From: a virus
Reading direction: 5' to 3' (one strand)
Length of the DNA stretch: 63,670 nt
IMG/VR virus record: IMGVR_UViG_3300046542_000142
Coordinates: 1-63,670 of that record
Part shown: positions 709 to 56,467 of the stretch, one piece after another
Position numbering within the stretch: position 1 is the stretch's first letter
How the letters are laid out: each line of letters opens with the position of its first letter
Position numbers and translations under genes: made by a program
The notes under the pieces: generated by a model
What the model was told of the DNA's origin: nothing
Databases searched by the model: none
Seen by the model: only the letters and a program-made list of their open reading frames with translations

Positions 709-1353
709 TCATGCGCTAATATTTTCGTATGCGGTCCAGCGCTTGCGGATTAACACGACGCTATTATGCAGCGCCTGCTTGCTTACGGCCATCTCACGCG
801 CGATATCCGCCATCTTCTGGCCGCCGAGCAATGCGCTGACAATACGCTGCTGACTCGGCTTTAATTCCGCGATAAACTCGGCGGCGTATAGCACTGTCTC
901 GTCGTCCGTACGGCCGCCATCCGTCCAGTCCGCTAATGGCGCAATACCGCGCGATCGAACGGCCAGCAGCGCTTTACCGGCGGCCTTAACGGTGACTCCG
1001 TAGCGTTGCGCGATTACCTCCGGCTGCTCAGCGTCCAGGCCATCGTCCATAATACGCCGCGCTAACGGATATACGCGGTTAGGGATGCGGCCGGCACCGG
1101 ATTCACGGCGGAATAGCTTACCGATGTATCCGCGTATATACGACGTGGCGAACGTGCTAAATTCGATGCCGGCGTCGTTATAGCGGTCATATGCGAGAAT
1201 GAGTCCGAGCGTGCCTTCGCTGACTGCGTCCTCGCGAATACGGCGGTCACAGCGGTTAGTAATTGCGTAGACTAGGAGCAAGTTAGCAACGATAAAGTCA
1301 GCACGGGTTAACGGGCCTAGTAACGGGTTGTCTGCGTGGGGAGCGTTAGTCAT
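709..1353 (-). CDS. Sigma-70 family RNA polymerase sigma factor
   Basis: A 214-residue protein with a sigma region 2-like segment at about residues 30-85 (DAVSEGTLGLILAYDRY, then FSTFATSYIRGYIGKLFRR) and a region 4 helix-turn-helix at about 165-208 (LKPSQQRIVSALLGG, then MADIAREMAVSKQALHNSV). It should bind host core RNA polymerase and direct it to phage promoters. The start is ATG 1353 because GGAGG lies 10 bases upstream; an in-frame start at 1386 would lack a ribosome binding site. It follows a non-coding gap of about 690 bases and is separated from the structural genes, so it may be expressed on its own. Which phage genes it controls cannot be told from sequence. Confidence 0.85.
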   Translation of the reverse strand: MTNAPHADNPLLGPLTRADFIVANLLLVYAITNRCDRRIREDAVSEGTLGLILAYDRYNDAGIEFSTFATSYIRGYIGKLFRRESGAGRIPNRVYPLARRIMDDGLDAEQPEVIAQRYGVTVKAAGKALLAVRSRGIAPLADWTDGGRTDDETVLYAAEFIAELKPSQQRIVSALLGGQKMADIAREMAVSKQALHNSVVLIRKRWTAYENISA

Positions 1354-1730
1354 GGCGTTGATACCTCCGTGTGTGTAATAGTGCAAAAACGAGAGTGAAA
1401 ACGGCGTGAGTAAGGCGGTGCGGGTTAGCTGCGCGATAATAGCGCTATTGACTTCCGCGTAAATGGTAGTATTCTTTAAGATCTTTTAAAGACTTAAAGA
1501 TCTTAAGATCTATTAACTCAGTTATTCACTACGTTCATAACTTCGTTACGGACCGGATAAGAGCATTCCGTTCCGAACATAACAGGAAACGCGCGGATTA
1601 GCCTTGTATTACACATATAGAATAGCGCTGATCTTAAAACATAAAAGATAAAACCGTATCCGATGCGTCCGCCGCGCCCCGTTTCCGCGTCTGCACCTTA
1701 ACCTCCGCTCGGCCTCCGTCGTTTCTCCGT

Positions 1731-27337: not shown

Positions 27338-29095
27338 TTACATTCCTGCGGGTTTATTGCGTACACGGCGTTTAGCTTTCGCGACGTTCTCGACCGCCAT
27401 CGACAGCGCATCCGCCGAGTCAACGTAGTCGCCGCGTGGAAATTGCGCCAATTGGTCGAGAAGCATTGTGTGGCCTGCATTGAGAATGAGCGTTTTATTA
27501 TGGAACAACGGTTCGAGCGCCTCGATACGTTCGTCCTTACCGGACTTGTGCGCCTTAACATCGTTCAGCCGCGTTTTAGACAACCCTTCGATACGCAAGC
27601 GCTCCTGTAGCTGCCGATAAAATTCGTGCTGCGCATTAATCGTCTCAACGCTGAAAACGTGATGCTTGTACGTTTTAATCCGCTCGACAATCACGTCGAG
27701 TATCTTGTGCGGCTGCTCTTTCGTGGCGTATTCGTCAAGTATGAAGACATATCCGGTCTTATCGTGGCGGCCAACGGTCAGGACGGCGTTATAACAGGAT
27801 CGCGCGTTCTTACCCTGCGCAATATCCCACGCGCCGCTTATCGTCAGCTCCGACATAGGTATCCGCAAGTCTTCGTAACGGATAAAGCGTCGGCCATTAT
27901 CGTACTCATAGCGGTAATAACCGTAAGTGTCCGGGAAGAAGAATTGCTCGTCTTCGCTAAACGCTAGATTCCGGAACTCCGAGTTATATGCGCGTGTTCC
28001 CATGTTCACCTTTTCGTGCATAAGCGCGCGGTACGTCCAGCGCCACGGCCACGCCAAAATAACGCCGGCTTCGAGTTCGGCGCGATGTTCGTTATAAAAA
28101 TCGTCGGCGTCCGTAGACTCATCGTCAGATCGCGCATATATCTCGCAGTAGCGCTCCCATAGTTGCGGATTATCCGGCTCACTTACTACCGCGCCATGAA
28201 ACGAGGATTCGAAGTCCTTACGTTTGAGTACATGATTCAAAAGGCCGGTGGCGCTAACCATCGTACCGACGAGTATAATCGCAGTTGACTTCGATCCGAT
28301 CGGGACGACAACGGAGTTAAACCAGTGTACGAGCTTCTCGCGCGCTTCCTTCGTGCCTTCGTTGTTGATAGACGACGGATCATCGACGATAACAAGGTCC
28401 GGACGCTTTGAACCGTGGCGCATACCACGTAGCTGCTTACCCGATGATGACGCCTCGATGCGCGTGCCGGACGTTGTGATAAACGCCTCTTCGTTGTCCT
28501 TCTCGTTTTGGTTATTGCGCTCATGCAAAAGGGGACCGAAGTCCGCGCGTAGCTTCTCGTTAAATTTGAGCTGCTTGTTAATCCAGCCAATCAGCTTTTT
28601 CGATAGCGTGTCTGTCTCCGATATTTCCAAGATATAGCGCCGCTTTCGATACGCCGTTTGGTGCAACGGGAAGCTATTCGAGAACATACCGGATTTCGAG
28701 TGCCCACGCGCAGCCGCTATCGCAAGCCGAGCGCTTCTCTCAACGTGGTCAACGTGATTGCATAACTTAAAAAACTCCGCATGGATCGGCGCTATTTGTT
28801 CTAGCGGATCGTGCGGAGTTCCATCGTCGGCGTTCGCTATGATATTGTCTTCGTTGTCCGGATTGCCGGCGTCGGAGAGATATTCGTACGTAAAATATGC
28901 AACGTCATCCTCGGCGCGGTCGATCCGTTTGAGCCGTTTTAGTTCCGCAATGTCGGCGCGTAGTGATTCTTCGTGATACGTCGTCGCGCGGCCAGTCCGT
29001 ACAAGCTCGCGCAGTTTAACCGCCCGTTCGCCTACGAGTTTGATGCGCTCAGCACGCGCAGATTTATCGAGCCAAGCTTCGTTTACCCATGCGAT
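27338..29095 (-). CDS. terL: Terminase large subunit (apparent ATC start)
   Basis: About 585 residues if initiated at ATC 29095. A Walker A-like AAARGHSKSG lies at about 126-135, Walker B LVIVDDP near 235, and the nuclease acids are in GAWDIAQGK (about 424), FSVETINAQ and DSADALSMA. The frame is bounded upstream by the terS stop (TAA 29119-29117). No ATG, GTG or TTG occurs before ATG 28687, which would remove the Walker A motif. GGAGGGAGG ends 9 bases before ATC 29095, giving (M)AWVNEAWLDKSARAERIK. Non-canonical initiation is therefore likely; a sequencing error is the main alternative. It pumps DNA into the head and cuts it. Confidence 0.92.
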   Translation of the reverse strand: MAWVNEAWLDKSARAERIKLVGERAVKLRELVRTGRATTYHEESLRADIAELKRLKRIDRAEDDVAYFTYEYLSDAGNPDNEDNIIANADDGTPHDPLEQIAPIHAEFFKLCNHVDHVERSARLAIAAARGHSKSGMFSNSFPLHQTAYRKRRYILEISETDTLSKKLIGWINKQLKFNEKLRADFGPLLHERNNQNEKDNEEAFITTSGTRIEASSSGKQLRGMRHGSKRPDLVIVDDPSSINNEGTKEAREKLVHWFNSVVVPIGSKSTAIILVGTMVSATGLLNHVLKRKDFESSFHGAVVSEPDNPQLWERYCEIYARSDDESTDADDFYNEHRAELEAGVILAWPWRWTYRALMHEKVNMGTRAYNSEFRNLAFSEDEQFFFPDTYGYYRYEYDNGRRFIRYEDLRIPMSELTISGAWDIAQGKNARSCYNAVLTVGRHDKTGYVFILDEYATKEQPHKILDVIVERIKTYKHHVFSVETINAQHEFYRQLQERLRIEGLSKTRLNDVKAHKSGKDERIEALEPLFHNKTLILNAGHTMLLDQLAQFPRGDYVDSADALSMAVENVAKAKRRVRNKPAGM

Positions 29096-35566: not shown

Positions 35567-35791
35567 ATGGCCGCTTATAAAGTCCGCCTTAAACTCGACG
35601 CAATCCTAAAAGAACGCGGCATCGGCGATCGTGAGTTCGCGCGCTTAACCGGAATCCGCCATCCATCCGTAGGTGAAATGCGCGCCAACAAGACGCTGCG
35701 CCTGCCGCTGGAAAACCTCGCGATTATGTGCGAAGTGCTCGACGTTGAGATTACGGATATACTCGAATTAGAAAAAGAGCCGCGCGATTAA
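35567..35791 (+). CDS. XRE-family transcriptional regulator (74 aa)
   Basis: A single Cro/CI-type helix-turn-helix domain: LKLDAILKERGIGDREFARL, TGIRHPSVGEMRANK, then LAIMCEVLDVEITDILELE. It lacks an oligomerisation or peptidase domain. AGGAGG precedes its ATG. It is divergent from the consensus leftward promoter and likely binds that intergenic region, acting as repressor or Cro-like regulator. Its stop overlaps that of the convergent gene by 4 bases. Confidence 0.88.
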   Translation: MAAYKVRLKLDAILKERGIGDREFARLTGIRHPSVGEMRANKTLRLPLENLAIMCEVLDVEITDILELEKEPRD

Positions 35792-36579
35792 GCTGCGGCC
35801 TTTTCTTCGTATTCAGCGTATACTTCCGCGCTCTCTATCGTCACTTCGTTCACCGCGCTCATATCCGCCAGCCACCGCGCACCAATCCCGCGTTTCTGTA
35901 CGAACGGCTCCGTTAATTCCCCGGCGGTCTCCCGCAGATTATACGTAACGACCGCGCCTGTCGCTGTATCGCGCTTATAACGGACAGCCCGCGCCTTATT
36001 ACGTATCTTAGCGCCGGCATCGACCGCATTATTCTCGCCCGGCGTGCGCTTTCTCCGCCCGGCTCCCGTACGACTATTCCGCCCATCAGCCGCCAGCACA
36101 ACGCCGGCCCCTTGCGGATCATCGTCGCGTATCGGAGTCTCACCGCGCATATTCGTGGCTTCGCTACCGCGCCGTCCTTCGCGCCTACGTTCGAGCTGCG
36201 TGTCCGAGTAGATCGGATATTCGTTGTGCTGCGCTTTATGTGCGTCTTCGTCCGCGAGCTCATCGTAGAGCACAACGTTAGTCAAGCGGTCCATAAGCGC
36301 TGTACTCGCGGATACCGGAGTCGGACGCTGGCCCGGACAGCCCTTCGCGTACCAGGCGTCGAGCGCGTATTGGTTAAACTCGCCGTGATCGCGGTAATAA
36401 GCGTCTTGTATCGCAGCGACAACGAGCATACGCGTTTCACGGTCGCGGATATCGTAAGTCGCGCCGTTGTATACGTAAGGGATCGGCGGTGCGTCATCCG
36501 CTTTATAGCGTGAGCGTAACGCCTGTTCTAGCGCCTCAATCGCGGCGGTCGTGCGTTCGATGTACGTTTTCTCTGCCAT
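35788..36579 (-). CDS. Hypothetical protein (263 aa)
   Basis: MAEKTYIERTTAAIEALEQA followed by RSRYKADDAPPIPYVYNGAT; the middle is charged and low-complexity (ERRREGRRGSEATNMRGETP), and the end AEVYAEYEEKAAA. ATG 36579 has GGAGG 9 bases upstream, formed by the last codons of the upstream gene. No family recognised. Confidence 0.65.
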   Translation of the reverse strand: MAEKTYIERTTAAIEALEQALRSRYKADDAPPIPYVYNGATYDIRDRETRMLVVAAIQDAYYRDHGEFNQYALDAWYAKGCPGQRPTPVSASTALMDRLTNVVLYDELADEDAHKAQHNEYPIYSDTQLERRREGRRGSEATNMRGETPIRDDDPQGAGVVLAADGRNSRTGAGRRKRTPGENNAVDAGAKIRNKARAVRYKRDTATGAVVTYNLRETAGELTEPFVQKRGIGARWLADMSAVNEVTIESAEVYAEYEEKAAA

Positions 36580-36581
36580 AG

Positions 36582-36839
36582 TCACGCCGCCTCCTCAATA
36601 GCTACTTTTCCGTTCTCGTCATAAACGTCAAACCATTCCCCACAGTAGTTGAACGTCGACTCTCGTAGCTTAAGAATGGTGGTTATTTTCTTGCAGGTGT
36701 AAACGCGCATTCCTTGATATCTACCGTCCAGTCCGGTAAATTCGCCGCGATAATAGCGCGACAGCCGCCCGTGCTTATAAACCGTTCGAACGTATTTCTC
36801 TCCAGATTCCTCGCCCATCTCTTTGCGTAAGTAAAACAT
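36582..36839 (-). CDS. Hypothetical protein (85 aa)
   Basis: MFYLRKEMGEESGEKYVRTV, beta-rich with Tyr and Arg (HGRLSRYYRGEFTGLDGRYQ) and an acidic end, ENGKVAIEEAA. The EEAA codons carry the ribosome binding site of the next gene. TAATG overlap with the HTH gene upstream. Family unknown. Confidence 0.65.
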   Translation of the reverse strand: MFYLRKEMGEESGEKYVRTVYKHGRLSRYYRGEFTGLDGRYQGMRVYTCKKITTILKLRESTFNYCGEWFDVYDENGKVAIEEAA

Positions 36840-37255
36840 TATGCCGCCTCCGTTTCGTTATCGTCCGTAGTCTCTTCGTCCAGATCGTAGCTGACCGTAA
36901 TCTCGCCGTACTCCCACCGCTTATACACCGCCGCTATTCTTTCCGCTGCCTCACCGTAGAGCTTAGCAGCCGCCTGCTGCGTTATGCCCATGATGGCGGC
37001 GGCGTCCTTCTGCGTCATGTCTGCGCCGCTGATCCACGCGAGTGCTTCCGCCTGGCGCTCTGATAAGCCGGCGCTGAGGATAGCGGAATGAAGATCGAGT
37101 AAAATGCAGCTCGCGTCGGTGTCTCCGTGATACCGCGCGGAGTTAACGTGGTGGCGATCGCGGAGGAGCTTACGTACGCCCTCTGCGTCGTTGAGAACGT
37201 ATTTAACTTCGTATGTGCGTGCGCCTTTGTCTACGTCGATTTTTACAGACCCGAT
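36839..37255 (-). CDS. HTH protein, sigma region 4-like (apparent ATC/ATT start)
   Basis: About 138 residues. The N-terminal part GSVKIDVDKGARTYEVKYVL is followed by LSAGLSERQAEALAWISGAD and MTQKDAAAIMGITQQAAAKL, a helix-turn-helix of sigma-70 region 4 type. The frame lacks ATG, GTG or TTG until codons deep in the HTH. AGGGAG ends 9 bases before ATC 37255 (6 before ATT 37258). It ends in TEAA with a TAATG junction to the next gene. It could be a late-gene activator or sigma-like factor. Confidence 0.75.
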   Translation of the reverse strand: MGSVKIDVDKGARTYEVKYVLNDAEGVRKLLRDRHHVNSARYHGDTDASCILLDLHSAILSAGLSERQAEALAWISGADMTQKDAAAIMGITQQAAAKLYGEAAERIAAVYKRWEYGEITVSYDLDEETTDDNETEAA

Positions 37256-37359
37256 AATAATCCGCTCCCTTTTTCGGACAGACCAGCGCAGGCTTGTCGT
37301 AGCCCCGCGCCAGTGCTGCCGCTTATTGTGAATTTGTCTAACGCTGAAACTTGCGAATA

Positions 37360-37557
37360 CTATTCCGCAATTGTCCGCTCTAATCCCGTTTCCGCCACCA
37401 CATATGCGTTCTCACATTCGCCGTCATGCGTCTTGTCTCCGTTTGTGTACGACGTAACCCCATTGCCTACATAAATCTCGCCGCTACACCAGGCACAGTA
37501 AGCGGAGACTCGCGGTTCACTCGGCGGTTGGAAGCGCTCGTCCATCGGCGTCCACAT
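37360..37557 (-). CDS. Small zinc-ribbon protein (65 aa)
   Basis: MWTPMDERFQPPSEPRVSAY with CAWCSGEIYVGNGVTSY and a later HDGECENAYV (Cys and His ligands). Small Cys-rich ribbons of this kind are common in phage early regions. TAATG overlap with the methyltransferase stop. Function unknown. Confidence 0.6.
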   Translation of the reverse strand: MWTPMDERFQPPSEPRVSAYCAWCSGEIYVGNGVTSYTNGDKTHDGECENAYVVAETGLERTIAE

Positions 37558-38696
37558 TACGCAGCCTCCCGCAGATCGACCGCTAAAGCTGCGTTAAGTT
37601 GCTCCGCCAGCGCGACTCCGATAACGTAGGAGACGCGCGATGCGACTCCGTTACCGACGATTCGGTATTGCGCGGATAGCGAGATTGTGTCCGGTAGCAC
37701 GTACGAATCGGGTACGGATTGGATGCGTAGGCATTCGCGGACGGTGAACCGGCGTGGCTGCGGCGCAGGGTGTACGCCTTCATTCCGTGCATGACTTCCT
37801 ACCGTCAGAGACGGCGACTCCCACGAAGCGACTCGATTAGCTTTCTCGTATGTCCAATCGGGATTAACATTGTCAAATAAATGGCCGTGATGATTATCGG
37901 TGTACGACGGGTGTACGAACGCCTTCCCTTCGTTAAATATCCGCCCCATTATCGTAGGGCTTGGTTCCTCCCATGGATTGACGCGGAACCCAAACGCCCC
38001 ACCTGCGTTCCTTCTAGCGTAACCCTCAAGAGCCTTCTCCGTGATTATTTTCTCTTCGTGATTTGCGATTGGTTCCGGTAAATCTCCGATGACATCGCGC
38101 AACACCTGCGTCCGATACTCTCCAACGCTTGGCTCCGGAAACTTAAACGTAAATCCGAGGTCTTTACGGATGCCGACGATAAACACGCGCTCTCTCTTCT
38201 GCGCCACTCCGTAATCCCAAGCGTTGATTAAGCGCCAGGTAATCGCGTAGCCAATCGCGTCAAACTCCGCAAGGAGAGCGTCAAAAGTCTGACGGTGCTT
38301 CTTCGTAATCAGCCCTTTAACGTTCTCGAATACGAAGGCTTCCGGCTGTCCATGCGAGATGTCTTCTAAGTAATCCCATACAAGTTTTCCTCGCGCTCCT
38401 TCTTCTCCTTCGCCAAGCCCAGCAACACTATAATCCTGACAAGGAGGCCCGCCAGCATAAACATTTGCGTGAGGTATCTTGGCTTTGATTTCCGCGCTCG
38501 TAATGTCCCCACAAATAACATGGTCGCCAATATTGTGAGCGTAAGCCTCTGCGGCACGTTTATCGAAGTCATTTGCGAAGATGATATCGTACCCCGCAGC
38601 CTTGAGTCCGACGGCCATCAGACCACCTCCGCAGAAGAACTCGGCTACTGTTAAGCCATTCGTAGGCAATTGCGGTGTTACGTTATAATTGCGTAT
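37557..38696 (-). CDS. DNA cytosine-5 methyltransferase (possible ATA start)
   Basis: About 379 residues with all key C5-MTase motifs: I (VAEFFCGGGLMAVGLKAAG), IV (GGPPCQDYSVAG, nucleophile Cys), VI (FVFENVKGL), VIII (QKRERVFIVG), IX (FTVRECLRIQSVPDSY) and X (QYRIVGNGVASRVSYVIG). It should modify phage DNA, protecting it from host restriction; no partner endonuclease is adjacent. AGGAG ends 9 bases before ATA 38696, giving (M)RNYNVTPQLPTNG. In-frame ATG 38744 exists but has no ribosome binding site and would overlap the upstream gene. Confidence 0.93.
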   Translation of the reverse strand: MRNYNVTPQLPTNGLTVAEFFCGGGLMAVGLKAAGYDIIFANDFDKRAAEAYAHNIGDHVICGDITSAEIKAKIPHANVYAGGPPCQDYSVAGLGEGEEGARGKLVWDYLEDISHGQPEAFVFENVKGLITKKHRQTFDALLAEFDAIGYAITWRLINAWDYGVAQKRERVFIVGIRKDLGFTFKFPEPSVGEYRTQVLRDVIGDLPEPIANHEEKIITEKALEGYARRNAGGAFGFRVNPWEEPSPTIMGRIFNEGKAFVHPSYTDNHHGHLFDNVNPDWTYEKANRVASWESPSLTVGSHARNEGVHPAPQPRRFTVRECLRIQSVPDSYVLPDTISLSAQYRIVGNGVASRVSYVIGVALAEQLNAALAVDLREAA

Positions 38697-38715
38697 GGTT
38701 ATCGTCTCCTCTCGT

Positions 38716-38907
38716 TTACCTTGTGATGGTCGGTAAATCTCCATTGGACATTTTGAGCGGTAGGTTGCGGTTAATGTTTTTGGCAGGCGTACTACCGTCA
38801 TTAATCGGTATTCCTGCGCCGTAGTTAGTTGTTGTCTTACCGTCAACGACGTTTTGAATATACGCAGGTAGCCTGTCCTCAGGGTCGTGATTCGCTACCC
38901 TCCGCAT
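38716..38907 (-). CDS. Hypothetical protein (63 aa)
   Basis: Frame reads VANHDPEDRLPAYIQNVVDG and GAGIPINDGSTPAKNINRNL. ATG 38907 follows GGAGGAGG by only 3 bases, so the start is uncertain. It overlaps the end of the 50-residue gene upstream. Family unknown. Confidence 0.5.
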   Translation of the reverse strand: MRRVANHDPEDRLPAYIQNVVDGKTTTNYGAGIPINDGSTPAKNINRNLPLKMSNGDLPTITR

Positions 38908-40847: not shown

Positions 40848-40891
40848 AAAAAAAAACGGAGAGTCGGCGAAATTAATCGCTAACTGCTCCG
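40848..40891 (-). terminator. Intrinsic terminator after nrdG
   Basis: On the minus strand an imperfect stem closed by GGAG/CTCC and GCG/CGC is followed by nine T residues. The stem overlaps the last codons of nrdG. It separates the nrd genes from the block downstream. Confidence 0.8.
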
Positions 40892-41352
40892 CTTTGTCTT
40901 CGTATAATCCGCTGATTCCAACTGCCCCGGTACTTAAGCGTAAGGTCACGCTCGGCCTCAACGTAGCGGCCGTCAACGATAACGTCGCATAGTTCCGCAA
41001 GCTCCCGCAGGTCCGTCCGCCTCATTAACGCTTCGTACGTGTATCCCGTATACGCCCATACGTTGAGGTCCGGACAGGCAGCGCGGAATCTGCGCACAAA
41101 CTCCGCGCATTCAGCCGCTGAGAAGAACGGATCGCCGCCACACAGCGTAATCCCGTCGAGCAGCGGATTGGCCGCGACTTCCGCGATTAACGCGTCCTGC
41201 AGCGCCGGCGTAAACGGACGGCCATATGTGAAGTCAGTTGCAGCCTCGTTGTGGCAGCCTGGGCAAGCGTGACGGCATCCGCTGATATAGAATACCGCGC
41301 GCATACCGTCGCCCTCCGTTATTGACTCCGCACAATAGCCGGCGAGATTCAT
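40873..41352 (-). CDS. nrdG: Anaerobic ribonucleotide reductase activase
   Basis: A 159-residue radical-SAM enzyme with the CxxxCxxC cluster motif in SGCRHACPGCHNEAATDF (about 25-42) and GGDPFF for SAM binding. It generates the glycyl radical on NrdD. It follows nrdD after 3 bases and is closed by a strong terminator. Confidence 0.95.
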   Translation of the reverse strand: MNLAGYCAESITEGDGMRAVFYISGCRHACPGCHNEAATDFTYGRPFTPALQDALIAEVAANPLLDGITLCGGDPFFSAAECAEFVRRFRAACPDLNVWAYTGYTYEALMRRTDLRELAELCDVIVDGRYVEAERDLTLKYRGSWNQRIIRRQSGAVSD

Positions 41353-41355
41353 ACG

Positions 41356-43290
41356 TTAGGCTCCGTGGCGTAAGCGGTCTTCAACTTCCGCCTGCTTCGC
41401 CGGATTAAAGCGCGTTTTATAGTCGCCGGTTAAGTAGCCAGTTACGCGGCGGATACGCGACATTGGGACTACGCGGTCCTCTACGCCACATGACGGACAC
41501 TCTGCGCCGATAATGCCTTCGTAGCCGCACGCAGGGCAACGGTCAATCGGATGATTAACGCTGAAATATCCGATATCCTGCGAGAGTGCATACTGTACCG
41601 TACGCATGAAAGCGCGCGGATTATTGCGTGCGTTACCATCGAGCTCAACGTATGAGATTGCGCCGGCATTGCATAACGCGTGGAATGGCGCTTCCAGTTC
41701 GATTTTACGCGCGGCTGTGATCAGATAGTATACGGGAATATGAAACGAGTTCGTATAGTAATCGCGGTCAGTTACGCCGGGGATAACGCCGAATTCTGCG
41801 CGGTCAATCTTCGTAAACTTACCGGCCAAGCCTTCCGCAGGCGTAGCGAATAGCGTGATATTCAATCCGTATACTTCCGAAGCGTCATCACAGAACTCCC
41901 GCATCCTGGCGATAATTTCGGTCGCTTTAGCGTAGACTTCTGCGTCCTCTCCATGATGCTTACCGTAAAGCGCCGTCATACACTCCGCTAGTCCGATAAA
42001 GCCGAGCGCGAGCGTTCCGTGCCTAATAAGATCGCGTACGTTATCGTCAGGACCGAGCGCTTCTCCGCCTTCCCATACGCCCTCGCGCATCATGAAATCG
42101 GAGGCTCGCGCTGGCTGCTGCGCTTGGATTCCGTAGCGGTGGATAAGTCCGCGCACAGATACGTCCATATAGCGATCGAGCTCCGAGAGGAATCCGTTCA
42201 TATCCGGTTCGGCGCGCTGTCCCGTTGCGATTCCGTATTCGAGTCCGAAGCGTACGAGATTCAGCGTATTAAACGAGAGGTTACCCTTACCGGATTGATG
42301 ATTGCGGCCGAATCGATCGGCTATCGTACGCGTCCGGCAACCCATAGTCGCGATAATCGTATTCGGGTCCGCTGGGTCGTAATACTGCAGATTGTACGGA
42401 GCGTCTACGTTAACAAAATTCGGATACATTCTCCGCGCGCTGCATTCGATTGCCCGCGTGAATATATCGTAGTTAGGATCGCCGGGCTCCTGGTTAACGC
42501 CGCGCTTGCACTGGAATATCTGCTGCGGAAATATTGGCGTTTCCCCTGCGCCGAGCCCCGCAATGGCCGCGTCCAGTAACGCGAACGAAACCATCCGGCC
42601 TTCCGTTGACGTACACATTCCGTAGTTAAGCGACGTGAACGGTATCTGGCCGCCGGCCCGCGAGCTCATCGTATTCAAATTGTGGATAAGCGACTCGGAC
42701 GCCTGATACGTTTCCGTCTCCGTTTCGGCCCGTGCGTATTCGTATGAACGCGGAAACACTTGCGCCAGGTCGCGGTTATCGAGGAATAATTCCGTGTCGG
42801 CCACGTGTGTCGATTCGCGGAAATAGCGCTGTCCCTTACGGAAGTGTTTAACGAATGACTTGCGCACGTATGGCGCGAGATCCCAATCGATCTTATTACC
42901 GCTGACGCCGCCGTACTGCGCGTTCTGCTGCGATTGGAATATGATTGCTACGAGCGCCATCGCGGTCATAATCGAATTAGGATGGCGGACGGAACCGCTG
43001 CCCGTATTGAATCCGTTAGCGAGCAGACGGTCGAACGGAATGAATATACAATTCGTTGTGCCGAGCGCGTATTGATCGAGGTCGTGTACGTAAACGTGTC
43101 CGCTGTCAATCGCGCTGACCAGTTCCGCCGGCATTACGGATTCACGTGCGTACCACTTCGAGTATTCGCTGCCGAACTTCGACATCTTACCGCTGAATGA
43201 ATCTCCGTTTAGATTCGCGTTCTCTTTTAGTATTTCCGCATCCTGTGCGTGGATAATACGTTCGCCGATTTCGTGTAAATGTGTAGTCAA
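41356..43290 (-). CDS. nrdD: Anaerobic (class III) ribonucleoside-triphosphate reductase
   Basis: A 644-residue enzyme that reduces ribonucleotides to deoxyribonucleotides. VYVHDLDQYALGTTNCIFIP, FTSLNYGMCTSTEGRMVS, the catalytic IIATMGCRTRTI region, the zinc site CPACGYEGIIGAECPSCG and the C-terminal glycyl-radical segment RRVTGYLTGDY are present. It implies growth of the host without oxygen at least at times. It starts TTG 43290 preceded by AGGGGG. Confidence 0.95.
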   Translation of the reverse strand: MTTHLHEIGERIIHAQDAEILKENANLNGDSFSGKMSKFGSEYSKWYARESVMPAELVSAIDSGHVYVHDLDQYALGTTNCIFIPFDRLLANGFNTGSGSVRHPNSIMTAMALVAIIFQSQQNAQYGGVSGNKIDWDLAPYVRKSFVKHFRKGQRYFRESTHVADTELFLDNRDLAQVFPRSYEYARAETETETYQASESLIHNLNTMSSRAGGQIPFTSLNYGMCTSTEGRMVSFALLDAAIAGLGAGETPIFPQQIFQCKRGVNQEPGDPNYDIFTRAIECSARRMYPNFVNVDAPYNLQYYDPADPNTIIATMGCRTRTIADRFGRNHQSGKGNLSFNTLNLVRFGLEYGIATGQRAEPDMNGFLSELDRYMDVSVRGLIHRYGIQAQQPARASDFMMREGVWEGGEALGPDDNVRDLIRHGTLALGFIGLAECMTALYGKHHGEDAEVYAKATEIIARMREFCDDASEVYGLNITLFATPAEGLAGKFTKIDRAEFGVIPGVTDRDYYTNSFHIPVYYLITAARKIELEAPFHALCNAGAISYVELDGNARNNPRAFMRTVQYALSQDIGYFSVNHPIDRCPACGYEGIIGAECPSCGVEDRVVPMSRIRRVTGYLTGDYKTRFNPAKQAEVEDRLRHGA

Positions 43291-43473: not shown

Positions 43474-43685
43474 GCGGCCATATCCTCCGCGTTTAGAGCA
43501 GCGTCTAACACATCATAGATAGCGTACCCACCGTCTGATGCGAGCGCTTCTCCGGGATATTCCTCCGCGACTTCGTCTAGCTTTTCTATACTCAGCCAAC
43601 CGAACACAGCGCGGAGCGTGCGTACCTCTTCCTCCGTGGCGATAATTTCGAAAAACTCCCGGTTATCCATTCGATCAATTCTCAT
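43470..43685 (-). CDS. Small acidic protein (71 aa)
   Basis: MRIDRMDNREFFEIIATEEE, then VFGWLSIEKLDEVAEEYPGE. Acidic and helical, coupled to both neighbours by 4-base overlaps. Family unknown. Confidence 0.6.
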   Translation of the reverse strand: MRIDRMDNREFFEIIATEEEVRTLRAVFGWLSIEKLDEVAEEYPGEALASDGGYAIYDVLDAALNAEDMAA

Positions 43686-44239
43686 GCCGCAATCCCTCCG
43701 ATTTCATCGATCATATTTTCGCGCAGTAAATACGATAGGCCAACCGCACACGCGTCACTGTCATCGTAACCGGGTCGCCATTTGTATCCGTCCGATAACC
43801 GCAGATACCTCCGCACGCCTTCCGCGACTTCCGGCTTCTCCGCTTTACCGCTGCCTGTTACGTATTTCTTAACGGACGGCGGAGATAGCGCGGGCTTCAA
43901 GTCCTCCGCCTGGTATCCGTACGCCGCGAGCGCTTTGTCTGCGGCGGCCCATGCGCTAAATATCGTTTGAGTCGCGCGCTTATTCCGTCCGGACGTAAAG
44001 TCTTCGCGGACTACGATATCGAACGGACGGTGCTCGCGGATGAACGCGGCGACAAACGTCTCGACCGTGTAATTCCGCACCGCATCCGTATCGGCCGTCG
44101 AAGTCGCTACGGAGTCACACGCGATAAGGTGCGGCGTGCGGCCCCGGACTTCCAACGCTGCGATGCCGGGGGATAACGATAGGTCGAGCGCAAGGATGCG
44201 GAAGTTAAATTCCGCTGGTTTCTTCGTCTTTGTCGCGAT
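43682..44239 (-). CDS. RuvC-like Holliday junction resolvase (apparent ATC start)
   Basis: About 185 residues. The first catalytic Asp is in FRILALDLSLSPGIAALEVR (D19), followed by IVVREDFTSG and the C-terminal DDSDACAVGLSYLL with paired acids, as in RuvC-fold resolvases. The first ATG/GTG/TTG in frame is TTG 44155, after D19, so it would remove the active-site residue. GGAGG ends 8 bases before ATC 44239, giving (M)ATKTKKPAEFNFRI. It overlaps the upstream gene by 35 bases. It would resolve branched replication intermediates before packaging. Confidence 0.85.
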   Translation of the reverse strand: MATKTKKPAEFNFRILALDLSLSPGIAALEVRGRTPHLIACDSVATSTADTDAVRNYTVETFVAAFIREHRPFDIVVREDFTSGRNKRATQTIFSAWAAADKALAAYGYQAEDLKPALSPPSVKKYVTGSGKAEKPEVAEGVRRYLRLSDGYKWRPGYDDSDACAVGLSYLLRENMIDEIGGIAA

Positions 44240-45409: not shown

Positions 45410-46441
45410 TTACGCGGCCTCCTTCGCTGACTCTTCGAATCTAATCCGCTGAATCTCCGCGAGCGCTTCGGCTGGCCCGCGCTTCTTCCAGTCCGGCAGG
45501 CTCGACCGGTTAATCGCACTGACCTTCCGTTCAATGACCGCGATTTCCTCTTCCGTTAAGGAAAGCGCACAGGCGCGCTTGAAATTGTTAAACGTAAAGT
45601 TTTCGATATCGAGGGGCGGCGGCGTCTTCGTATTGACCGCGTGGACAATGTCCGCGAAGCCGTCGAATACCTCTGCGCGCATCTCGTCCGTAATATACAG
45701 GCCGTACGCCTTGATATCCGGTGTCTTCGCGAAGTCCTCGGCGGTCATTTCCCACGCCTTTTTAGCGCAGTTAACGTAGAGAATTACGTAATAATCAACG
45801 CTGTACATTTGCGAGTAGCAGACCGTTTGCTTAACGTGCTTTTCGTCCGGACCATTACGCGTTGAGTATTCGGACGTCTTGGCCGACGTAGTTTGCTTCG
45901 ATTTCACTTCGAGGCCGACGCGCAGCACTTCGCCGTCATCCGTCCGGTAAAGCATCATACCGTCGCAGAATCCGTATAGCGCGAAGACAGCGCCGTTGTG
46001 TGTAATATGCGTCAGGCCAGGCGCAAACTGTTCGAAGCGCGGCTCGCCCTGCGTGTTACGTTCGAATACAAAACGTGGGAGGACTCCGGTGGCCTTGGCA
46101 TAGTGTTTCTCCGCGAAGAGAATATCGCGCTGTATCATGTCGCCAACCTGCGTACCGAGCCGAGTCCAGCGCCCTTGATGCGGCGGCTGACCGGCTCCGT
46201 CCTTATTCGCGCCGAGCGCCTTTTCGTAAAGTGAGCGCGGACATGCGCCAGCGGCCGACGGAGAGAAATACGGAATGTTACGCGGCGGCCATACCTTGCG
46301 CGATTTATCCGTGAGGACAGCGGCGTACCAGGCGTGAATCTGCGCGTCGAGCGCGTCGTCGTACGTTTCCGGCTGCGAGTGCCAAACGTTGAGATATGCG
46401 GTAAAGTCCTCCGCGATTTGATTAGCGATTGATTGCGTAAT
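45410..46441 (-). CDS. PD-(D/E)XK nuclease, Cas4/RecB-like (apparent ATT start)
   Basis: About 343 residues. YFSPSAAGACPRSLYEKALG (58-77; CPR-Y motif), then GTQVGDMIQRDILFAEKHY, the catalytic Asp in FCDGMMLYR (about 160) and LEVKSK (E178, K180), then KQTVCYSQMY (the QxxxY element). This is the RecB/Cas4/YqaJ nuclease layout. The first ATG in frame (46138) would remove the CPR motif; no GTG or TTG occurs earlier. AAGGAGG lies 9 bases before ATT 46441, directly after the upstream stop, exactly as in sibling junctions with ATG. Likely a recombination or host-DNA degrading exonuclease. Confidence 0.85.
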   Translation of the reverse strand: MTQSIANQIAEDFTAYLNVWHSQPETYDDALDAQIHAWYAAVLTDKSRKVWPPRNIPYFSPSAAGACPRSLYEKALGANKDGAGQPPHQGRWTRLGTQVGDMIQRDILFAEKHYAKATGVLPRFVFERNTQGEPRFEQFAPGLTHITHNGAVFALYGFCDGMMLYRTDDGEVLRVGLEVKSKQTTSAKTSEYSTRNGPDEKHVKQTVCYSQMYSVDYYVILYVNCAKKAWEMTAEDFAKTPDIKAYGLYITDEMRAEVFDGFADIVHAVNTKTPPPLDIENFTFNNFKRACALSLTEEEIAVIERKVSAINRSSLPDWKKRGPAEALAEIQRIRFEESAKEAA

Positions 46442-55507: not shown

Positions 55508-56467
55508 TCAACGTATTTTTAAACGCGGTCGCACCGTATCAATCCGCTTAGCACTTTCGCAAGCCAATCGCGTACCCTCGATACCTACCGCGTTGAAATC
55601 CTTACCTCCGCTAATCTCTACGTTGTACAGCCGTACATACCCGCGCATCTTCCGCGTTATCTCCCAGCGCAGCTTCTCGCCGGCCTCATCGTTATCGCCC
55701 GCGATTAGCAGCTCCTCAATCGGACTCCTACGTAATAACTCCGCTTTCTCATCCGTAAACTCGCTGCCACCAACCGCCAGCCCAAACGTACCGGCCGACG
55801 CAGCCGTCATCGCGTCTATTTCCGCCTCAACGATAACCGCCCGCTTAATATTTCTTCGGTAGACTGCGTCGATTCCGTAAATCATCGATTTAACCGGCGC
55901 GCCACCTTTCGCGTACCAAAACGCTTTCCCCCACGTAGCGCGCCACTTCGCGTTCATAACGTCGCCGTTTGGTCCGCCCCACGGCATCACAACGGCATTC
56001 TTCGCGTTGTCGTATCCGCATCTGTACAGCCGCTGAATAATTGGCGCTATTCCACGGCCGGTTAGATACGGAACTTCCTGCTCGATAAACGCTGTGATGT
56101 CGAGGGGCCTGCGTTTAGCTGGCGGTCCCGTGCCGCGTAAGTTAATCCGCAATTCCGGCCGCGCGTATGCGTCAGGGACTTCGTACAAAATTTCACAAGC
56201 CTCAGCGTTTGTTATGTTCCGCAAGAATGCGTACAAACGGATGGGGCCGCCGCTCTGCCAATCCGGATCGATCGCACCTTTATCCGACCAGCATCCGTAA
56301 TACTGTGACGCGCGGTCTAAGTTGATAAAGAAAGATGGCGCGTTATCACTCCGTAAGCCGAACGGCGAGCTCGCGATGAGCTTCGTTGCGTGCGGGATGA
56401 CATTGCGCCAGGGGTAGCGTTCTATTTCAGCGTCGAGGGCGTCTACGTTAAGTAAATTGCGGTCGAT
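55508..56467 (-). CDS. DnaG-type primase with TOPRIM domain (apparent ATC start)
   Basis: About 319 residues. N-terminal KLIASSPFGLRSDNAPSFFI and ASQYYGCWSDKGAI (about 33-70) form the primase-type SPF...PSF.v......YGC motif without the full CHC2 zinc ligands. TOPRIM follows, with VIVEAEIDAM (E about 214) and IAGDNDEAGEKL (DxD about 258). The first in-frame TTG (56236) would delete the N-terminal domain, and no ATG/GTG/TTG precedes it. GGAGG ends 7 bases before ATC 56467. A consensus promoter at 56591-56563 drives it. It makes RNA primers for the phage fork. Confidence 0.88.
   Translation of the reverse strand: MDRNLLNVDALDAEIERYPWRNVIPHATKLIASSPFGLRSDNAPSFFINLDRASQYYGCWSDKGAIDPDWQSGGPIRLYAFLRNITNAEACEILYEVPDAYARPELRINLRGTGPPAKRRPLDITAFIEQEVPYLTGRGIAPIIQRLYRCGYDNAKNAVVMPWGGPNGDVMNAKWRATWGKAFWYAKGGAPVKSMIYGIDAVYRRNIKRAVIVEAEIDAMTAASAGTFGLAVGGSEFTDEKAELLRRSPIEELLIAGDNDEAGEKLRWEITRKMRGYVRLYNVEISGGKDFNAVGIEGTRLACESAKRIDTVRPRLKIR

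Follow-up and report, generated by a model that had tools for sequence, protein, structure and literature searches.

On the minus strand of the window (the whole stretch of viral DNA analysed here, 63,670 nucleotides), between the replication genes (63-39 kb) and the terminase and structural genes (29-7 kb), lies the frame of a small putative regulator. From stop to stop it covers 36839-37411 (190 codons), and from ATC 37255-37253 to TAA 36841-36839 it comprises 138 codons. No ATG, GTG or TTG occurs in frame in the 52 codons between this ATC and the upstream stop, and the first canonical codon, ATG 37018, is the 80th. The preliminary description had reported a 138-codon frame lacking a canonical start, an AGGGAG ahead of ATT 37258 and ATC 37255, and a TAATG junction with the neighbouring gene. 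All three are present: AGGGAG occupies 37270-37265 and is followed by ATT 37261, ATT 37258 and ATC 37255, while the stop codon of the frame overlaps the ATG of the gene at 36582-36839. The features of the locus are as follows.

36839..37255, minus strand: regulator gene (phrog_3512, sigma region 4 only), 138 codons, best-supported start ATC
37253..37255, minus strand: candidate near-cognate start ATC, aligned with the ATG of L012, Tripp and 268TH002 and the TTG of C7Cdelta
37265..37270, minus strand: Shine-Dalgarno (SD) sequence AGGGAG, 9 nt before the ATC
36941..37072, minus strand: helix-turn-helix (HTH) of the sigma region 4 domain, residues 60-103 when Ser 37249 is numbered 1
36582..36839, minus strand: downstream gene, start ATG, coupled to the regulator through TAATG

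A sigma region 4-like HTH had been proposed for this frame, with a profile search of its translation as the check. The search matches phrog_3512 ("sigma factor") at E 4e-20, residues 2-125 aligning with positions 4-128 of the 130-position profile, i.e. along the full length of the family. Pfam Sigma70_r4 is matched at E 6e-5, just under its curated cut-off. The AlphaFold model is confident (mean pLDDT 84.6), and its C-terminal half fits known structures of sigma region 4, with deviations of mostly 1.3-3 Å across 53-75 columns; the Foldseek E-values are weak (>0.05) and the probabilities near 1. By domain similarity only, the protein thus has the region 4 HTH of the sigma-70 family, the part of sigma factors that binds the -35 element. 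Region 2, which is involved in -10 recognition and core RNA polymerase binding, has no match in Pfam, PHROGs, NCBIfam or the fold search, and the protein is therefore not a complete sigma factor. Neither the ArpU/RinA late regulators (TIGR01637/TIGR01636) nor the Xpf-type positive control factor (NF005385) gave a match to the regulator.

The frame is kept in homologues of 34-94% identity. These include proteins of Paenibacillus larvae phages annotated as "RNA polymerase subunit sigma" or "SigK-like", of Bacillus phages 268TH002 and phi18-2, of IMG/VR contigs, and of prophages of Paenibacillus, Brevibacillus, Cohnella, Neobacillus, Chengkuizengella and Bacillus. Judging by its region 4 domain and fold and by the position of the gene in the genome, the product is probably a late-gene transcription regulator, possibly the activator that had been suggested. 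A second sigma-like gene is found at the other end of the record (709-1386, minus strand; phrog_351), where TIGR02937 scores just under its cut-off.

The conserved N-terminal motif start-G-x-V-K-[IV]-D served to align the homologues. Among 85 distinct sequences the start column contains ATG in 50, ATC in 26, TTG in four, ATA in three and GTG in two, and it always stands behind an SD, whether the codon is canonical or near-cognate. It is ATG in L012, Tripp and 268TH002, TTG in C7Cdelta, ATC in the window and L007-L011, and ATA in phi18-2, where the annotated gene begins inside the frame, 26 codons past the aligned ATA; the suggestion that ordinary annotation would miss such a gene is thereby borne out. 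On an IQ-TREE protein tree, 15 switches between near-cognate and canonical codons are reconstructed, at least 10 of them forced by well-supported branches. In-frame stops lie 6, 10 and 14 codons upstream in L010, L011 and L009, respectively, so that no other canonical start is left there. Between the window and L007, codons 2-78 differ by 22 synonymous and 9 nonsynonymous changes (dN 0.053, dS 0.569), a pattern indicating purifying selection on the segment that precedes any internal canonical start. On this evidence the frame is a real, conserved phage gene, and ATC 37255 is its best-supported start: the conserved N-terminus has no in-frame ATG, GTG or TTG, the SD is properly spaced, and the start column is kept in relatives.

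The preliminary description had left the choice between ATT 37258 and ATC 37255 undecided. The ATC aligns exactly with the ATG or TTG of relatives and the ATT 37258 lacks such an alignment, which favours the former. Initiation at ATT 37258, or at ATT 37261, is improbable, even though both are near-cognate and close to the SD and position -2 is ATT, ATC or GTT in most near-cognate members. Only the ATC column aligns with the ATG, TTG or GTG of relatives, and it is invariably ATC or ATA in near-cognate members; the codon before it varies (ATT, ACT, ATC, ACC, GTT, AAC), making ATT 37258 less likely. That the N-terminal part might be read by frameshifting or by run-on from an upstream gene draws on the 52 open codons ahead of the ATC. 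It seems very improbable, given that upstream sequences and frames differ among relatives, that stops lie 6-14 codons upstream in several of them, and that the SD has stayed immediately in front of the ATC. Scarcely credible, finally, is a decayed frame or a 59-residue product from ATG 37018. This is indeed the first canonical codon, but a start there would forfeit half of a conserved protein, a half on which purifying selection acts, and the sequence ahead of this ATG (TGGATCAGCGGCGCAGAC) has no clear SD.

Some relatives are less straightforward than the window. In a Bacillus subgroup (L043, L045, L047, L051 and relatives), canonical codons occur in frame ahead of the SD, at a distance of 9-17 codons from the start column, and a longer product may be made there; in L040, of the same subgroup, a 1-nt shift removes them. 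L068 and L042, which belong to the ATA/ATC rows, are ambiguous, with a GTG or TTG in the same frame shortly before the start column. Two further relatives, L039 and L041, do not have the M-G-x-V-K start, and the sequence AAGGAGGCGATTACCGATCGAT suggests that they may begin at the ATC of I-D.

Near-cognate starts are not peculiar to the regulator, a point missed by the preliminary description. The following candidates occur in other genes of the window.

27338..29095, minus strand: terminase large subunit, 585 codons, start ATC 29095-29093
45410..46441, minus strand: Cas4-like exonuclease (phrog_1706), 343 codons, start ATT 46441-46439 behind AGGAGG
43682..44239, minus strand: RuvC-like resolvase, 185 codons, start ATC 44239-44237 behind AAGGAGG
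55508..56467, minus strand: DNA primase (Toprim), 319 codons, start ATC 56467-56465 behind GGAGGAGG
38694..38696, minus strand: possible near-cognate start ATA of a C5-cytosine methyltransferase, the gene being listed from TTG 38846

Confidence in the last is lower, as its frame also contains canonical codons further upstream. The terminase gene has an in-frame stop seven codons upstream of its ATC and its first canonical start only at 28687; the homologues of Tripp, C7Cdelta and G797 have ATG at the site of the ATC. The primase homologue of G795 likewise starts with ATG.

Across 13 related Bacillus/Paenibacillus phages and prophages, near-cognate starts (ATC, ATA, ATT; rarely ACG or GTA) are found in genes for the large terminase, portal, primase, Cas4-like exonuclease, RuvC and N6-methyltransferase, mostly at sites where homologues have AUG. 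Since this start type is common to many genes of the lineage, including the terminase and primase of the window, it is not a device restricted to the regulator. In 67 distinct IMG/VR relatives the terminase column is ATG in 23, TTG in 22, ATC in 10, ATA in three, GTG in three, ACG in two, GTA in two and something else in two; five of these sequences (both GTA, one ATA and the two others) have an ATG one codon later. A near-identical terminase leader, GGAGGTGCGTTCNN, precedes ATC in L238, ACG in L166 and L185, and ATG in L169. In L166 and L185 the apparent ACG start, at about position 498, lies six codons past a stop and behind GGAGG. For the portal of 268TH002, phi18-2, G003, G798 and G800, ATC is the first codon past the stop, behind AAAGGAGG; another portal has ATA in G795 and ATG in the window, and the DNA polymerase has ATA in G001 and ATG in the window. 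In the N6-adenine methyltransferase gene, which lies upstream of the regulator in many relatives, the column is ATA, ATC, GTA, TTG or ATG. The GTA occurs in L003 at 1772 (Tripp, annotated 15 codons later) and in L034 at 505.

The extent of the phenomenon was estimated in two ways. Of 760 conserved frames from the 13 phages and prophages, 58 have no canonical codon near the conserved N-terminal end and yet a strong SD; in 34 of the 58, ATC, ATT or ATA follows the SD at 5-10 nt. Flagging in six frames without requiring an SD and an alignment yields many antisense false positives (117 of 175 flags had no SD). The aligned-start test was restricted to homologues whose canonical start is supported by an SD. 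It counted, in the lineage, 17 genes with ATC, ATA or ATT behind an SD against 202 with ATG, GTG or TTG, as well as 16 with another codon, in which the true start is probably displaced. The same test gave no near-cognate start among 68 genes of eight control phages (five Listeria phages, two Fernvirus phages of P. larvae, and PG1). Genes of the lineage are not independent, and families, of which there are about ten, are therefore the better count. Some candidates were set aside: two ATT flags in the controls, from a looser scan, look by their position like an upstream extension and an internal frame, and ACG in some aligned-start genes probably reflects one-codon shifts after an ATG, only the terminase ACG of L166 and L185 being counted. 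Flagged genes encode enzymes, regulators, the terminase and the portal, products that are presumably needed in small amounts; genes for the major capsid or the tail tube were not seen among them. Gene finders restricted to ATG, GTG and TTG will truncate or miss genes in these phages. Indeed, the GenBank entries of Tripp, 268TH002, phi18-2 and C7Cdelta give several of them truncated or extended canonical starts.

The context of the regulator start differs with its codon type. Genes with a canonical start adjoin or overlap the upstream gene in 39 cases and do not in 17 (n=56), whereas those with a near-cognate start adjoin it in four and have a free leader in 25 (n=29; Fisher p 9e-7). Relatedness-controlled independent pairs point the same way (4.5 vs 0.4 in favour) in a comparison that is underpowered (median sign-test p 0.125). 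These observations suggest two possible routes to a modest output of the regulator, namely coupling and a weak codon. Extended anti-SD pairing is -15.1 kcal/mol for near-cognate and -14.2 kcal/mol for canonical starts (p 0.03, uncorrected for relatedness); the difference is only slight, and a stronger SD is not claimed as compensation for the weak codon. A G+C-rich, hairpin-like insert separates the upstream gene from the SD in the window (37275-37321), L007 and L009. It is missing in L008, where the SD directly follows AATAA, and with a z-score of -1.75 the hairpin was left out of the mechanism. The leader of the N6-methyltransferase gene, AAGGGGGCGATTGTTATAGG, is the same as that of the regulator where the methyltransferase is absent (L057 compared with L006). 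Repeats of TTAACGAA occur in the leader (TTGTTAACGAAGTTATTAACGAAAAAGGAGG) of L043, L047, L051 and relatives, about 40 nt before the regulator, as well as in the L030 group, and further upstream, with an apparent methyltransferase remnant between, in L053, L064 and L065; they are possibly operator sites.

Taken together, the data make it quite probable that the window encodes a region 4-type regulator translated from AUC 37255 by means of AGGGAG, that this is one of a set of near-cognate starts in the lineage, and that these starts give reduced, dosage-tuned output. In this reading, the frame, the aligned column, the repeated switching, the N-terminal selection, the SDs and the genome-wide recurrence are documented by the sequences themselves. 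The SD would place AUC 37255 in the ribosomal P site, where the initiator tRNA would read AUC, AUA or AUU through near-cognate pairing, and synthesis of the products would be slowed and tuned to dosage, with IF3 as a possible limiting factor. In Staphylococcus aureus, AUU and AUA starts work at about 10% of AUG and, in the case of one gene in rich medium, at as much as 30% (PMC13009471), a range from which a reduced product rate would follow; in Listeria, start strength decreases from ATG to ATA to ATT (PMC13068326). In Streptomyces, the GTC start of sigR is held down by IF3, and its replacement deregulates the regulon (PMC5472188). By analogy with these bacteria, the AUC start would lower, and perhaps condition, the output of the regulator, and low or dosage-tuned translation is the likeliest purpose of near-cognate starts in general.

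This purpose, but not the AUC start itself, is disputed by the main alternative, in which strong SDs make the start codon nearly irrelevant and ATG, TTG, ATC, ATA and ACG interchange without selection. Such drift is a genuine though lesser possibility. It would explain the numerous back-and-forth changes, the 22 TTG and 10 ATC beside 23 ATG in the terminase column, and the presence of an SD throughout; it fits less well with the conservation of ATC in whole clades of the regulator, its excess over ATA (26 to 3) and the lack of any ATT, with the dependence of codon type on operon position, or with control phages that have SDs and show no near-cognate starts. A phage trans factor, such as an IF3 antagonist, could instead relax start selection during induction and thereby make the near-cognate genes a translationally controlled set. 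The occurrence of the feature in several different genes (DNA replication, recombination, packaging) and the IF3-repressed sigR of Streptomyces (PMC5472188) speak for it. We regard it as unlikely, since the window contains no tRNA genes or Rfam RNAs and initiation at such codons, at 10-30%, is already within the reach of ordinary Firmicute ribosomes (PMC13009471). Dosage-tuned translation from the AUC remains the preferred reading. It can tentatively be extended to a lineage with a relaxed start-codon rule, in which genes of replication, recombination, modification, regulation and packaging would have been selected onto AUC, AUA, AUU or ACG, their output being set jointly by initiation fidelity (IF3). 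If true, this would be a layer of phage translational control hidden by annotation. As ATG, ATC, ATA and ACG replace one another naturally at a single site, the role of the start codon can be tested in related natural genes.

Other features of the lineage may be mentioned here. AimR-type arbitrium receptors are annotated in 268TH002 (35774-37012; L140) and phi18-2 (37444-38754; L141), and part of the lineage may therefore use peptide signalling. The window carries an anaerobic ribonucleotide reductase, nrdD/nrdG (40873-43290, minus strand); near this place, 268TH002 and C7Cdelta have alpha/beta ribonucleoside-diphosphate reductase genes instead.

Near-cognate starts in bacteria are regarded as rare curiosities. 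In the phages described here they are a recurrent feature of the lineage and reach essential genes (large terminase, portal, primase). The known examples, such as infC, ccpN and sigR of Streptomyces, each stand alone. A search of openly accessible papers revealed no concentration of near-cognate starts in one phage lineage, essential genes included, and such lineage-wide use appears to be unreported there.

The closest parallels are the Firmicute genes infC (AUU/AUA), ccpN (AUA) and cvfC1 (AUU), which, like the window gene, have a conserved AUN start behind an SD; several of the Firmicute non-canonical starts belong to regulators and were overlooked by gene finders, as here (PMC13009471). However, those are isolated genes, with four sites in S. 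aureus (PMC13009471), whereas several genes per phage are concerned here, with mostly AUC and with essential packaging and replication genes included. In sigR of Streptomyces (PMC5472188), the start codon restrains a regulator of the sigma type, which is the idea advanced for the window gene in the preliminary description. Codon and host differ, sigR encodes a sigma factor with an anti-sigma partner whereas the window protein has region 4 only, and a role of IF3 here would be by analogy. Among phages, the PBSX Xpf-type "positive control sigma-like factor" (NF005385), for example PANG_00062 of Paenibacillus phage PG1, is also a small sigma-like protein; the HTH of the window protein aligns with it over 46 residues (hhalign E 2.9e-5) and the rest does not. 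By contrast, the phrog_3512 proteins of P. larvae phages C7Cdelta, Tripp and Unity and of Bacillus phages 268TH002 and phi18-2 are homologous to the window protein over its whole length, and the same phages share its neighbourhood of dNMP kinase, methyltransferase and regulator. Most annotated members of this family start with ATG or TTG, in contrast to the ATC of the window, and phi18-2 has the ATA missed by annotation.
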